Origin: a bacterium
GTDB taxonomy: Bacteria; Patescibacteriota; Andersenbacteria; UBA10190; CAIZMI01
Assembly (NCBI GenBank): GCA_030647555.1
Contig: JAUSJG010000029.1
Coordinates: 1 to 33,870 of the forward strand
DNA: 33,870 nt
Direction of reading: 5' to 3'
Part shown: piece by piece, positions 3,425-33,870 of the stretch
Numbering within the stretch: position 1 is the first letter of the stretch
Layout: every line of letters begins with the position of its first letter
Position numbers and translations under genes: made by a program
The notes under the pieces: model-generated
Databases searched by the model: none
What the model was told of the DNA's origin: nothing
The model's input: the letters and a program-made list of their open reading frames with translations, nothing else

Positions 3425-3588
3425 AATTTTCAATTATCAATGACCAATTATCAATTAATTTTCCAGCCTTCGCTAAAGCTTCGGCCGGCAGGCAATTCTT
3501 AAATTATCAATTTCGCGATGACGTGGTAATTGATCATTCAAACATTGATAATTAATTGAAAATTGGGAATTGAACATTGATAATTTAA
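3425..3588. repeat. AT-rich long inverted repeat element, copy 1
   Basis: Two arms of caattatcaatgacc-like sequence face each other around a GC-richer centre containing CCTTCGCTAAAGCTTCGG. Near-identical elements lie at 18999-19129 and 29228-29390. It sits between the divergent CarS-like and esterase genes and overlaps the first codons of the longest esterase reading frame. Confidence 0.75.
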
Positions 3589-13106: not shown

Positions 13107-13204
13107 CGGCAGGATTAGGCCTCGAAACTTTCGTTGATACAAAAGTTTCTGGCCACCGGCAATCGGTTTCGTTGCGAACGAAACAACGATTGCCGTTCGA
13201 ATCC
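13107..13204 (-). repeat. tRNA-linked structured module R2
   Basis: On the minus strand the unit opens with GGATTCGAA, a copy of the tRNA-Arg T-loop side. It has a hairpin ending CGAAACCGATTGCCG, the linker GTGGCCAG, a second AAACTTT/AAGTTTC hairpin and GAGGCC, and closes with TAATCCTGCCGG. The GTGGCCAG...GAGGCC frame is shared with 14072-14214 and 32479-32608, although the stems differ. Confidence 0.7.
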
Positions 13205-13233
13205 GCAAGCGACACACGAAGGTGATACAACCC

Positions 13234-13358
13234 CGGCAGGATTCCTTTTTACTGTCAAAAACGCCTCGCTTCGCTCGATGCGTTTTTGACAGTAAAAAGC
13301 CTGGGTAGTTAAAACATTGAAGCAGTTCAATGTTTTAACTACCCTTCGAATCCTGCCG
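13234..13358 (-). repeat. tRNA-linked structured module R1
   Basis: The ends CGGCAGGATTC and GAATCCTGCCG form an 11-bp stem copied from the 3' part of the adjacent tRNA-Arg. Inside is a perfect 19-bp hairpin (13303-13344) with CTGC in the AACTGCTT loop. A perfect 20-bp hairpin follows (13245-13299). The plan is a three-way junction. It lies between the tRNA terminator and module R2. Confidence 0.75.
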
Positions 13359-13411: not shown

Positions 13412-13412
13412 G

Positions 13413-13486
13413 TGCCCCCGGCAGGATTCGAACCCACGACCTCCTGGTCCGAAGCCAGGCGCTCTATCCAGCTGAGCTACAGGGGC
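13413..13486 (-). tRNA. tRNA-Arg (anticodon TCG)
   Basis: Seventy-four nt fold as a standard cloverleaf. The acceptor is GCCCCTG/CGGGGGC with discriminator A, the anticodon loop CTTCGGA has TCG at 34-36, and the T-loop is TTCGAAT. CCA is not encoded. It decodes CGA and other CGN codons. It is followed by its own hairpin and by modules R1-R3 derived from its 3' end. Confidence 0.95.
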
Positions 13487-13501: not shown

Positions 13502-13573
13502 GGTGGCTAGAGGGTACCGCCCCCTCGTCTCCCGGACCACAACCGGACGTTCTACTATTGAACCATAGCCACC
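13502..13573 (-). tRNA. tRNA-His (anticodon GTG) with non-canonical elbow loops
   Basis: The 7-bp acceptor GTGGCTA/TAGCCAC is extended by an encoded G-1 facing C73, the hallmark of tRNA-His. The anticodon loop TTGTGGT gives GTG. The T-stem GAGGG/CCCTC encloses GGCGGTA instead of the usual TTCRANY, and the D-loop is AATAGTA, lacking the GG pair. All stems are intact, so it is probably functional with an altered elbow. It is 15 nt upstream of tRNA-Arg(TCG). Confidence 0.85.
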
Positions 13574-14017: not shown

Positions 14018-14071
14018 GCGCTCGTAGCTCAACTGGATAGAGCAAAGGGTTTCTAACCCTTAGGTTGGTGG
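14018..14071 (+). pseudogene. Truncated duplicate of tRNA-Arg(TCT), first 54 nt
   Basis: Identical to the first 54 nt of the complete gene at 14258-14311, 240 bp downstream. Identity stops at the start of the T-loop. The acceptor 3' strand is missing, replaced by the hairpin module at 14072-14214. On its own it cannot make a tRNA. Confidence 0.9.
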
Positions 14072-14214
14072 CTAAAATCAAGATTCACGAGCCAACTGCT
14101 TGGCTCGTGAACTGATTTTAGGCCCGGAGCGATGTTTTGCTCGCATTTGGCGAGCAAAACCGCGAGGGCGTGGCCAGACAAAATTTTCGGAAGAAAATTT
14201 TAGTCGAGGCCGAG
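14072..14214 (+). repeat. tRNA-linked structured module T1
   Basis: The order of hairpins is the family plan. H1 is CTAAAATCA/TGATTTTAG enclosing TTCACGAGCCAA/TTGGCTCGTGAA, with the AACTGCTT loop (14072-14121). HA (14122-14169) contains CGATGTTTTGC...AAAACCG. The linker GTGGCCA follows (14170-14176). HB is GACAAAATTTTC/GAAAATTTTAGTC (14177-14205). GAGGCCGAG closes it. It is fused directly to the partial tRNA. The remaining 43 nt before the full tRNA show nothing. Confidence 0.75.
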
Positions 14215-14257
14215 TACAGTTTATTAATTTGCGAAAATAATCTAAAGTCATAAGTAG

Positions 14258-14331
14258 GCGCTCGTAGCTCAACTGGATAGAGCAAAGGGTTTCTAACCCT
14301 TAGGTTGGTGGTTCGAGTCCCCCCGAGCGCA
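14258..14331 (+). tRNA. tRNA-Arg (anticodon TCT)
   Basis: Seventy-four nt with acceptor GCGCTCG/CGAGCGC, discriminator A, D-arm AGCTCAACTGGATAGAGCA, anticodon loop TTTCTAA (TCT) and T-loop TTCGAGT. All canonical positions are present. It reads AGA/AGG codons. A structured tail begins at the next base. Confidence 0.95.
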
Positions 14332-14606
14332 CTCGAGATTTGTTTCGCTTTGCGAAACTATCAAATGTACACAAAACGACTGCACGCCCTGTGCAGTCGT
14401 TTTGCACAAGAATCGAAGAACTCTCGAAATAGGTTTTGCTTAGCAAAACAAATATTAACGTACACAAACACGATTTTTACGGAACGTAAAAACGTGTTTG
14501 CACAAAGTTTGAAGAACTCTGGCGCAAGGTTTATCCGCGATAAACCGAGTGGCAGAGCAAGAGAATTTGCGATAAGAGACGCAAATTTTCGGAGCATCTT
14601 CTATAA
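14332..14606 (+). repeat. Structured tail element, copy 1, abutting tRNA-Arg(TCT)
   Basis: It begins CTCGAGATTTG and contains six hairpins, including GTTTCGC/GCGAAAC, AAAACGACTGCAC/GTGCAGTCGTTTT (14373-14403) and GTTTTGC/GCAAAAC. Others are built on GATTTTTACG/CGTAAAAAC, GGTTTATC/GATAAACC and AATTTGCG/CGCAAATT. Two tandem half-units share GTACACAAA...TTGCACAA and GAAGAACTCT. An inverted copy is at 32208-32481. It ends just before the receiver gene stop. Confidence 0.8.
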
Positions 14607-15908: not shown

Positions 15909-16006
15909 TTTTTAATTTGAAATTTACAATTTGAAAGACACAAATTTTAAATATCTAAAACAACATTTTCAAATTGATTAAAAATTTCAAATTAAAAATT
16001 AAAAAT
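15908..16006. repeat. AT-rich inverted repeat, 'aatttgaaattt' variant
   Basis: Arms of taatttgaaatttacaatt and its imperfect reverse complement face each other upstream of the kinase gene. It has the layout of the elements at 3425 and 18999 but lacks the GC-rich centre. Confidence 0.6.
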
Positions 16007-16025
16007 TCGATAGCGATTACGCACA

Positions 16026-18860: not shown

Positions 18861-18998
18861 CCGAACCCTGTGATTAGATAAGGGATAATTGTACTCCCAA
18901 AATACGAAAATGTCAATAGTAACTTAAAGACACTACTATTTTATGGCTTTTATTAGGCATTTTCTTTTGTTCCAAACACACACAAATCCTATCGCTTT

Positions 18999-19129
18999 TA
19001 ATTATCAATTTTCAATGACCAATTATCAATTAATAATCAATTCTTAAATTATCAAGTAACGGCGTCGTCAATTGATAATTGTATCATTGATAATTAATTG
19101 AAAATTGGGAATTGAACATTGAAAATTTG
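18999..19129. repeat. AT-rich long inverted repeat element, copy 2
   Basis: The arms match those of 3425-3588, including the same gaattgaacatt and gataattaattgaaaa words. The centre is shorter and reads GTAACGGCGTCGTC. It lies 50 bp past the ComM stop. Confidence 0.75.
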
Positions 19130-29227: not shown

Positions 29228-29390
29228 AATTTTCAATTTTCAATGATCAATTTTCAATTAATGTTCCAGCCTTCGCTAAAGCTTCGGCCGGCAAGCAATT
29301 CCCCAATTTTCAATAAACATCGTCGCGGTTTTTGGTTATTGAATCATTGGACAATTGATTGAAAATTGGAAATTGATAATTGAAAATTTG
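29228..29390. repeat. AT-rich long inverted repeat element, copy 3
   Basis: Arms of aattttcaatgatcaatt and tgattgaaaattgg face each other. The centre carries CCTTCGCTAAAGCTTCGG, identical to copy 1 at 3425. It separates rpsO from pnp; the remaining bases of this 400-bp gap show nothing. Confidence 0.75.
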
Positions 29391-31994: not shown

Positions 31995-32246
31995 TTAATA
32001 ATCTTCTTCCGTATCACTCCGACAAACAAACGAAATGCTGAGTGCTTTCATTGTTTCTAAAATTTCCTCGGTGGGTATCATAAAAGAGAGTATACCAGAT
32101 TTGATAAGAATTTCTCGCCCTTTCGTCCGCTTTTCCATACCAAAAAAGACACGTGCACATTCAAAAAATGGTGATTCACTCGCGGAAGCCAAGCAGTTGT
32201 GTTGTGATATAGAAGATGCTCCGAAAATTTGCGTCTCTTGTCGCAA
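31995..32246 (-). CDS. Small ORF whose 5' part lies in repeat sequence
   Basis: The 83-codon frame begins inside the structured tail at 32208. It includes a half copy of the GGAAGCCAAGCAGTTG hairpin word at 32183-32199. The C-terminal segment (about 30-83, VFFGMEKRTKGREILIKSGILSFMI...) looks coding and could start at ATG 32138. It may be the end of a gene truncated by the tail insertion, or a small independent gene leading the nucleotidyltransferase. No family is recognised. Confidence 0.45.
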   Translation of the reverse strand: MRQETQIFGASSISQHNCLASASESPFFECARVFFGMEKRTKGREILIKSGILSFMIPTEEILETMKALSISFVCRSDTEEDY

Positions 32247-32481
32247 ATTCTCTTGCTCTGCCGTGCGGTTTATTGCAAATAACCCGCACGCCAGAGTTCT
32301 TCAATCTTTGTGCAAACACGTTTTTACGTTCCGTAAAAATCATGTTTGTGTACATTAATAATTGTTTTGCTAAGCAAAACTCATTTCGAGAGTTCTTCGA
32401 TTCTTGTGCAAAATGACCAAACTGGATGTTTGGTCATTTTGTGTACATTGTATGGTTTCGCAAAGCGAAACAAATCTCGAG
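32208..32481 (-). repeat. Structured tail element, copy 2
   Basis: The reverse complement matches 14332-14606 along its length. The first and third hairpins are identical. The second differs: AAAATGACCAAAC/GTTTGGTCATTTT (32410-32440) replaces AAAACGACTGCAC/GTGCAGTCGTTTT, with four changed pairs, each compensated. The distal end TATAGAAGATGCTCC is shared. It continues directly from module L2. Confidence 0.8.
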
Positions 32482-32608
32482 AGACTCGGCCTCGAAACTT
32501 GAAATGATTTTCAAGTTTCTGGCCACCGGAAATCGGTTTCGCTTAAGCGAAACATCGATTTCCGTTCGAGTCTCTCACGGAAGCCAAGCAGTTGGCTTCC
32601 TCGTGCCC
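32479..32608 (-). repeat. tRNA-linked structured module L2
   Basis: On the minus strand it starts with GGGCACG (the 5' acceptor strand of tRNA-Leu). The hairpin GGAAGCCAA/TTGGCTTCC with its AACTGCTT loop follows, then GAGAGACTCGAA. Next come a CGGAAATCGATGTTTCGC hairpin, GGTGGCCAG, an AAACTTGAAA/TTTCAAGTTT hairpin and GAGGCC, ending in GAGTCTCTC. The 3' acceptor strand is lost where the tail begins. Confidence 0.75.
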
Positions 32609-32649: not shown

Positions 32650-32802
32650 GCACGGAGAGACTCGGTCACGAATAAATTTCCTGACGGAAATTTTTCGCGA
32701 CCCCCGCTCGCGGTTTTTGCCTTGCCCCGTTGGGGCAAACAAAAACATCGCTGCGCGTTTCGAGTCTCTCACGGAAGCCAAGCAGTTGGCTTCCTCGTGC
32801 CC
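32650..32802 (-). repeat. tRNA-linked structured module L1
   Basis: Starts GGGCACG and ends CGTGC, copying the tRNA-Leu acceptor, so the unit closes like a tRNA. Inside are the same GGAAGCCAA/TTGGCTTCC hairpin as L2, then GAGAGACTCG/CGAGTCTCTC, copied from the T-arm. This second stem encloses a TTTGCCCC/GGGGCAA hairpin and a GAAAAATTTCC/GGAAATTTATTC hairpin. The GTGGCCAG word is not retained here. Confidence 0.75.
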
Positions 32803-32947: not shown

Positions 32948-32949
32948 AG

Positions 32950-33030
32950 TGGGCACGGAGAGACTCGAACTCTCACGACTTGCGTCACATGGTCCTAAGC
33001 CATGCGCGTATACCATTCCGCCACGTGCCC
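32950..33030 (-). tRNA. tRNA-Leu (anticodon TAG)
   Basis: Eighty-one nt fold as a class II tRNA. The acceptor is GGGCACG/CGTGCCC with discriminator A, and the anticodon stem CATGG/CCATG holds loop CTTAGGA (TAG). A GAC-GCAA-GTC variable arm and T-loop TTCGAGT complete it. It decodes CUN codons. CCA is not encoded. Modules L1 and L2 copy its acceptor and T-arm. Confidence 0.95.
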
Positions 33031-33152: not shown

Positions 33153-33731
33153 ATGACCAAGATCTGTGTCCTGTTGGTTCTATTTTTCGGTTTCAATACG
33201 GAGATGTTCGCGGCCCAACACGGTGGCGGACACGGCCACAGACACGGCGGAGGAGGACACCACGGCGGTGGCGCACATTTCAATGCGCCACGGAGTGCCC
33301 ATCGGCCAAGCATGAACCATAGCAGTGTTCACATGAACGCACCACGCGTTGCACCACGCGTTATGGTTCATCACGCTCCGCGACCCAGTGTGCATGTCAA
33401 CACGCCACGACCGCAGACCTACTCGTACCGTCAACCTCACTACGTTCCGGCTCCCCGACCGCATTACCCGCCGGTAAGATCGTACGCCAGGCCGTACAAT
33501 ACCAACCACTTTCACGGCGGTTATGGCGGTTACAGCTACGGCGGATACGGAGTTGGACTGGCCACATCCATTGTGGATAGCGTCCTGTCCCAGCGGTATT
33601 ATTCCGCGCCTCCACGCTGCGTTCATGGGACCACGCAGGTTTGGTCTGAAGAATATGGAGTCTGGCTCTGCCCAACGTGCGGACAACCGGTTCCACCCCC
33701 ACCAACCCGCGTGCACTACTACGAGCCGTAG
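33153..33731 (+). CDS. Secreted His/Gly/Pro-rich protein with C-terminal Cys motif
   Basis: The ATG at 33153 has AAGGAG 6-7 nt upstream; the 22 extra codons before it are not supported. Residues 1-20 form a signal peptide (MTKICVLLVLFFGFNTEMFA), with cleavage likely before AQHGGG. A His/Gly tract (HGGGHGHRHGGGGHH, about 22-38) is followed by His-Pro-Arg repeats and a Gly/Tyr segment. Near the C-terminus Cys-x2-Cys (CPTC), with another Cys about 20 residues earlier, may bind zinc. Metal binding outside the cell is plausible, but the role is unknown. The stop abuts a perfect palindrome. Confidence 0.78.
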   Translation: MTKICVLLVLFFGFNTEMFAAQHGGGHGHRHGGGGHHGGGAHFNAPRSAHRPSMNHSSVHMNAPRVAPRVMVHHAPRPSVHVNTPRPQTYSYRQPHYVPAPRPHYPPVRSYARPYNTNHFHGGYGGYSYGGYGVGLATSIVDSVLSQRYYSAPPRCVHGTTQVWSEEYGVWLCPTCGQPVPPPPTRVHYYEP

Positions 33732-33870
33732 CGCACGGAAAAAAAGAAGCTCGACCCACCCGGCGTTCACCACGAACGCCTTTTTTTTGTTTTCTTTCGC
33801 GAAAGAAAACAAAAAAAAGGCGTTCGTGGTGAACGCCGGGTGGGTCGAGCTTCTTTTTTTCCGTGCGCTA
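33729..33870. repeat. 142-bp perfect palindrome ending at the last base
   Basis: The 71 bases from 33729 (starting with the stop codon TAG) are repeated in exact reverse complement from 33800 to 33870, with no spacer. The left half contains the natural terminator at 33762. The mirror ends with the window, suggesting either a fold-back assembly or amplification artefact at a contig end, or a true inverted repeat continuing outside. Confidence 0.9.
33762..33788 (+). terminator. Terminator of the secreted-protein gene
   Basis: GGCGTTC/GAACGCC with a 5-nt loop followed by eight T. It is 31 nt after the stop and lies in the left arm of the palindrome. Confidence 0.85.

Follow-up and report, generated by a model that had tools for sequence, protein, structure and literature searches.

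Structured elements at tRNA 3' ends in Andersenbacteria and a companion module across the phylum: candidates for non-autonomous mobile elements

Why do two hairpin-rich stretches, about 18 kb apart and in opposite orientations, each follow a tRNA or a tRNA-derived unit, and what keeps their stems paired where their sequences differ? The locus lies on contig JAUSJG010000029.1 of an Andersenbacteria assembly (GCA_030647555.1; phylum Patescibacteriota), of which we analyzed a stretch of 33,870 nt, referred to here as the window. An earlier note on this DNA had described positions 14332-14606 and 32208-32481 as reverse-complement homologues that both begin with CTCGAG at the end of a tRNA or tRNA-derived unit. 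The pair indeed aligns at 14332-14605 (+) and 32208-32481 (-), over 274 nt that are 89% identical as reverse complements (blastn E = 4.9e-99), and both copies begin C^TCGAG (the caret marks the joint). Copy 1 starts at the last base that ARAGORN gives to tRNA-Arg(TCT), 14258-14332 (...GCGCA-C^TCGAG), and copy 2 starts in the T-stem of a unit derived from tRNA-Leu(TAG) (...CGAGTCTC^TCGAG). The copies point in opposite directions because their host tRNAs are on opposite strands. Hosts and tails are arranged as follows:

14258..14332 (+): tRNA-Arg(TCT), host of copy 1, whose last base C74 joins the tail (ARAGORN, Rfam)
14332..14605 (+): copy 1, a composite tail in which one unit is interrupted in its last hairpin by a second one
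14332..14422 (+): first unit of copy 1, with closing stem P1, hairpin P2 and the compensated 14-bp hairpin P3
14423..14558 (+): second unit of copy 1, lying within P4 of the first unit
about 14559-14595 (+): last hairpin P4 of the first unit of copy 1 resumes
32208..32481 (-): copy 2, composite tail behind the tRNA-Leu(TAG) array
32255..32390 (-): second (nested) unit of copy 2
32949..33030 (-): tRNA-Leu(TAG), which hosts the array with copy 2 at its end (ARAGORN, Rfam)

Of the aligned positions, 31 differ between the copies. In five base pairs both partners have changed with pairing retained, and four of these belong to a single hairpin, much as first reported, except that this hairpin has 14 bp rather than 13; one further pair goes from C-G to U.G, one is broken, one position is unpaired in copy 1 and paired in copy 2, and the remaining differences fall outside the drawn pairs. 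The GTTTCGC and GTTTTGC hairpins are identical in both copies, in line with the two invariant hairpins claimed earlier, but invariance does not extend to the CACG.. hairpin, which has a wobble, or to the CTCTGGCG.. stem, which differs. When folding is compared with that of dinucleotide shuffles, the two copies give z = -9.2 and -8.8.

What had been read as one tail of ~270 nt is really one unit nested in another: The 5' strand of the first unit's last hairpin is interrupted by the second unit (compare the uninterrupted hairpin in stretch L012). This composite is present at at least 8 loci across the window's genome and that of a congeneric species, and 8 composites show double changes in 23 of 84 pairs. 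Nor is the pair a matter of two inverted copies. The composite sequence matches 24 places in the window's genome by blastn, and a covariance model built from 18 single units recovers ~30 convincing units of ~130 nt there, the orientation of which is simply that of the host tRNA. The same model finds 30 units in the one congeneric genome searched (G001) and none among the rest of 79 relatives, bar one weak match in another genus of the order; among the relatives searched, the tail is confined to one genus.

Each unit runs from CTCGAGATT through a hairpin (GTTTCGC/GCGAAAC), TGTACA, a long variable hairpin and TGCACAAGAATCGAAGAACTC to a last hairpin. Past it, where REP hairpins have a conserved tetranucleotide (GTAG or like) at their foot, many tails have CGGAGCTACC and others GGAGCATC. 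Units are found nested inside other units and inside the T-modules described below. We infer that a three-way junction is closed by pairing of the first bases of the tail with AATCGA(AGA), because the TCATTGATT of a second subtype can pair with AATCAATGA and because nested units alternate AAT/ATT with GGT/ACC. The unit would then fold into a closing stem (P1), hairpins P2 and P3, and finally hairpin P4.

Inspection of the sequence 3' to almost every tRNA in the two genomes showed that nearly all tail units begin directly after C74 of a tRNA or of a copy of a tRNA 3' end. In the window's genome, a tail follows C74 at about 11 tRNAs (Arg x3, Thr x3, Ile, Leu, Ser, Val x2). Tails also follow one tRNA that a group I intron interrupts and several copies of 3' ends (Leu, Trp, Tyr, Glu) that T-modules have left. 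Tailless tRNAs often encode CCA, and tailed ones have ..C^TCGAG in its place. The left junction, C74^TCGAG, is clear; we noticed no target-site duplication, which together with terminal inverted repeats marks a classical MITE, and for none of the tails can both junctions be aligned with an empty site. The element turned up in tRNA regions only. The intron-split host, at L014:3116-3427 (G000:C30), is a tRNA gene interrupted in its anticodon loop and followed by a tail unit; its intron (L014:3134-3388) scores 43.1 bits against Rfam (E 1.8e-9), below the gathering score of 50. A tmRNA that appeared to host a tail (L014:3200-3427) proved to be this split tRNA-like gene.

Such a placement could mean that tails are functional 3' trailers of pre-tRNAs, acting in processing, stability or regulation, and that T-modules are switch-like regulatory RNAs, in which an antisense T-arm pairs with the 3' half of its own tRNA or with the downstream copy. 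Agreeing with this, we noticed no tail opposite in orientation to its tRNA and saw no terminator between tRNA and tail among the 3' flanks of both genomes, and the core motifs are strongly conserved across the phylum. However, only part of the tRNAs carry elements at all, and the tail is limited to one genus among the relatives searched; further evidence on this reading comes from the pairing, the T-modules and the comparison of species.

Pairing is maintained throughout the family. Among 60 tail units, 94.9% of cells pair and both partners have changed in 32 of 41 pairs, with a covariation score of 0.388, compared with 0.133 after shuffling (0/500) and at most 0.109 with slid partners; the T-module behaves alike, with 26 of its 26 drawn pairs covarying in 63 sequences (0/500 shuffles). 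The homologues that the earlier note had proposed to look for thus exist, and uncompensated changes are rare among them. The changes come pair by pair and in varying combinations, so swaps of whole hairpins are not the only process at work, and identical last hairpins do recur at different loci. That selection is the sole possible cause is not supported. G.U pairs occupy only ~2.5% of cells and, on the tRNA-sense strand, only mildly outnumber A.C (54 vs 33 in tails, 27 vs 14 in T-modules), an excess for which per-pair sign tests are not significant. The mild excess fits the folding of one particular strand, as RNA or single-stranded DNA, and, being on the tRNA-sense strand, also suits a trailer; the low G.U fraction and its small margin over A.C leave room for a contribution from palindrome correction at the DNA level.

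Taken to its limit, the latter process would make the elements passive palindromic repeats, spread by recombination between tRNA regions, with arms kept complementary by DNA-level correction and conversion, and with no selection on the fold. The scarcity of G.U, the same last hairpins at different loci and the tandem growth of T-module units all agree with such a history. It accounts poorly for the unpaired motifs conserved across copies (CACAAGAATCGAAGAACTC; GATGT..ACCG; GGTGGCCAGA), for a joint that is exact at C74, for the closing stem P1, which is long-range, carries compensated changes and is no simple palindrome, and for persistence throughout the phylum. We regard passive spread as improbable.

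Two examples of a companion element, the T-module, separate tRNA-Leu from the copy 2 tail, and further ones accompany the Arg tRNAs of the window:

32480..32576 (-): T-module between tRNA-Leu and the tail, with antisense T-arm, two-hairpin core and a copy of the tRNA-Leu T-arm 3' strand (R2 model 102.4 bits; arms match tRNA-Leu(TAG))
32656..32769 (-): first T-module behind tRNA-Leu(TAG), with a variant core (R2 model 62 bits; arms match tRNA-Leu(TAG))
14018..14073 (+): duplicate of tRNA-Arg(TCT) without T-arm and 3' end (repeat D5; Rfam tRNA 24.7 bits, below gathering score)
14110..14219 (+): T-module replacing the T-arm of the tRNA-Arg(TCT) duplicate (R2 model 42.8 bits)
13110..13207 (-): T-module behind tRNA-Arg(TCG) (R2 model 99 bits)
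about 13250-13345 (-): related two-hairpin unit, its first hairpin with a AACTGCTT loop, between tRNA-Arg(TCG) and its T-module (sequence)
13412..13486 (-): tRNA-Arg(TCG), host of the T-module at 13110..13207 (ARAGORN, Rfam)

Next to the last of these, at 13502-13572 (-), is a further tRNA, apparently His(GTG), that scores 49 bits against Rfam and was missed by ARAGORN.

A T-module locus reads, in order, as a tRNA 3' end, a terminator-like palindrome, often a hairpin with a AACTGCTT loop, an antisense T-arm (..GGATTCGAAC), a two-hairpin core (CGG..GCGATGT..ACCGC..CCG; GTGGCCAGA..TCGAGGCC) and a copy of the tRNA's 3' end. The palindrome precedes most T-modules, which speaks against the reading as trailers and switch-like RNAs. 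T-modules occur in 46 of 381 genomes of the phylum with a broader covariance model (20 with the first model) and normally follow a tRNA; among 11 loci outside the training of the broader model, seven follow a same-strand tRNA at a distance of 25-60 nt and one follows a tmRNA. In distant genomes, the direct repeat can extend to 40-60 nt, from the T-loop to past the tRNA end, and units can stand in tandem.

The arms of the T-module match the particular tRNA next to which it lies. When 53 T-modules with an identifiable upstream tRNA were ranked against 93 different tRNA 3' ends, the right arm matched its own upstream tRNA best in 42 of the 53, and the left arm did so, alone or tied, in 28 of the 53 (mean rank 5.5%). 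The left arm might be thought the degenerate 5' T-stem of a duplicated tRNA, and, at stem positions where the two readings differ, 8 agree with antisense, 4 with a 5' strand and 8 with neither. The antisense reading is favored by the non-palindromic loops (AATCGAA for TTCGATT, ACTCGAA for TTCGAGT) and by the host ranking.

Comparison of the two congeneric species shows how little the tails follow the tRNAs that bear them. For tRNAs tailed in both species, 20 comparisons gave just one in which a tail had its ortholog as nearest relative (the closest relative of the first unit in the window's Leu copy, for instance, is a tail that follows tRNA-Ala(GGC) in the second species); the tail therefore turns over or moves. 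At Arg-CCG, Glu-CTC, Thr-GGT, Trp, Leu-CAG, Arg-TCT and Lys-TTT, an occupied tRNA in one species corresponds to an empty or differently occupied ortholog in the other. Ectopic gene conversion could yield part of this turnover, and, judged from the sequences of both species, we read the differing occupancy and ancestry as mobility. Functional trailers would be expected neither to differ between orthologous tRNAs of two congeners nor to ignore tRNA orthology, and we judge that reading unlikely, while granting it appreciable weight.

We propose instead, with a probability of roughly 0.58, that the tail and the T-module are non-autonomous structured mobile elements that target tRNA 3' ends. This reading is based on the ~30 units per genome, the same joint base at tRNAs of many specificities, the differing occupancy of orthologous tRNAs, the 1 in 20 orthologous nearest relatives, the nested units, the covariation and the host-matching arms of T-modules. 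Counting against it, there are no filled and empty alleles within one species, and confinement to tRNA regions also fits a tRNA-linked function. As mobile elements, tails would join the tRNA after C74 and in its orientation, in place of the remainder of the encoded CCA, leaving its supply to a CCA-adding enzyme, and could also insert into one another (nested in P4) and into T-modules. The T-module would place its two-hairpin core at the T-loop, flanked on the left by an arm of antisense T-arm sequence and on the right by one repeating the host's 3' end, such that the tRNA would stay intact because its 3' end is brought along or duplicated. Movement would presumably proceed by transposition or site-specific insertion, driven in trans by an enzyme; stems may be kept because a single strand must fold, either an RNA transcript or a single-stranded DNA intermediate, and tRNA 3' ends would serve as safe landing sites.

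The match between T-module arms and their hosts raises a further, more tentative possibility, which we think plausible without favoring it: that of a new, target-programmed kind of element, in which the folded core gains antisense and sense copies of the host tRNA's 3' end upon insertion, as could happen if it folded back or primed on the sequence of the tRNA. If so, one core family would be able to colonize tRNAs of many specificities throughout the phylum while breaking none.

Which enzyme might move such elements? Also counting against mobility, no recombinase or transposase was found linked to either the tail or the T-module. The one tyrosine recombinase of the window's genome is Xer-like in appearance and sited away from the elements, and it reaches 69.5 bits with integron integrase models against a cut-off of 265 bits, so the genome shows no integron integrase. 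Y1/RAYT transposases were rejected as movers: No tail or T-module motifs were found near the Y1 genes of both genomes, and the RAYT-like genes are flanked by another hairpin. That hairpin, GCTCCACCTACGAGGTGGAGC, accompanies RAYT-like Y1 genes in both species (L135:4450-5950; L136:1900-3300).

The tRNA regions also contain LAGLIDADG_3 ORFs of 195-415 aa that lie, in one or both species, directly between tandem tRNAs or immediately after tRNA-Leu(CAA) (L089:2051-3181 (G000:C27), L147:1500-2396 (tRNA-Cys), L149:4833-5700, L136:5428-6300, L098:7800-9345). They are candidates for free-standing homing endonucleases and occur in the orders Met-HEG-Asp, Cys-HEG-Leu, and Arg-GCG with T-module and tail, then HEG, then Ser. 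In phage T4, the homing endonuclease SegB, encoded in a tRNA cluster, drives the mobility of a tRNA region; by comparison, the enzymes here are LAGLIDADG and not GIY-YIG, and any association of enzyme with element is putative. Endonucleases of this kind might cut tRNA 3' regions, with hairpin elements carried or left behind by repair; in favor of this, they lie directly between tandem tRNAs in both species. However, the two genomes hold only 3 and 4 matches, mostly at tailless tRNAs, against ~30 tail units each, and five distant genomes with T-modules yielded no LAGLIDADG_3 match when tested, making this origin very improbable.

Several known systems share features with the elements that we take to be mobile. 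REP/BIME sequences with RAYT are likewise short, non-coding hairpin elements dispersed in many copies per genome with compensated stems, but the tail has a fixed target (the tRNA 3' end, in one orientation), a multi-hairpin unit and a closing stem, and the RAYT-like genes here adjoin a hairpin other than tail or T-module. Integrases that target tRNAs bring along or duplicate the tRNA 3' end and so leave the gene whole, and tycheposons are integrative elements of this tRNA-targeting type. Like the phage and island integrases' elements, the T-module lies in the 3' half of the tRNA and is bounded on its far side by a directly repeated tRNA 3' end, which is a feature of the T-module and not of the tail; in contrast to them, the elements here span ~0.1-0.3 kb, lack an integrase gene and use one core family over many specificities, and the T-module adds an antisense copy of the T-arm. 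The attC sites of integrons are hairpin sites folded from a single strand, with conserved structure and variable sequence. Tail and T-module resemble them in these respects, but no attC boxes were recognized, and conserved internal-loop motifs stand in their place. Group I introns are also structured elements in tRNA genes of the same genome; tail and T-module have no Rfam Intron_gpI match, although that library does recover the intron at L014:3134-3388, and they lie at or behind the 3' end rather than in the anticodon loop.

At gathering score, Rfam recognizes only tRNA in the window, and around the elements, with E up to 1, it gives only chance-level matches, such that T-box, self-cleaving ribozymes and other families were rejected. 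We obtained no blastn match of the tail to phages and plasmids or of the T-module to phages, and the abstracts and hit lists of the literature searched contain no description of either. A viral origin was rejected: Pattern scans of viral contigs gave 0, 0, 0 and 3 matches, and those three, which lack a tRNA and, by covariance model, a T-module, resemble chance matches in coding sequence. Within these searches of Rfam, of the phage and plasmid collections and of those abstracts and hit lists, no counterpart was seen of a non-coding tRNA-capping element of ~0.1-0.3 kb or of its phylum-wide companion. The ends of tRNA genes are classic landing sites of large mobile DNA, and, if mobile, these elements would offer a small, testable system of target-adapted insertion; if functional, many tRNA precursors of the lineage would bear large structured extensions, often with CCA missing from the tRNA gene.

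Other sequences also adjoin tRNAs in these genomes. Homologous GyrI-like ORFs (~205 aa) lie right behind different tRNA-Gly genes, GCC (L014) and CCC (L152), in the two species, as if they were cargo. GC-rich, REP-like palindromes (CCCGCC..GGCGGGC) break the T-loop of a duplicated tRNA-Glu (L019, about 1181-1280) and of a tRNA-like fragment (L141, near tRNA-Pro(CGG)), each time with an intact copy adjoining. Within the window, a perfect 71-bp inverted repeat without spacer occupies 33729-33870, at the contig's very end, and is possibly an assembly fold-back, and an A/T-rich dispersed repeat family (AATTGATAATTG..) occurs at four sites: 3425-3586, 15950-16008, 18998-19128 and 29228-29389.
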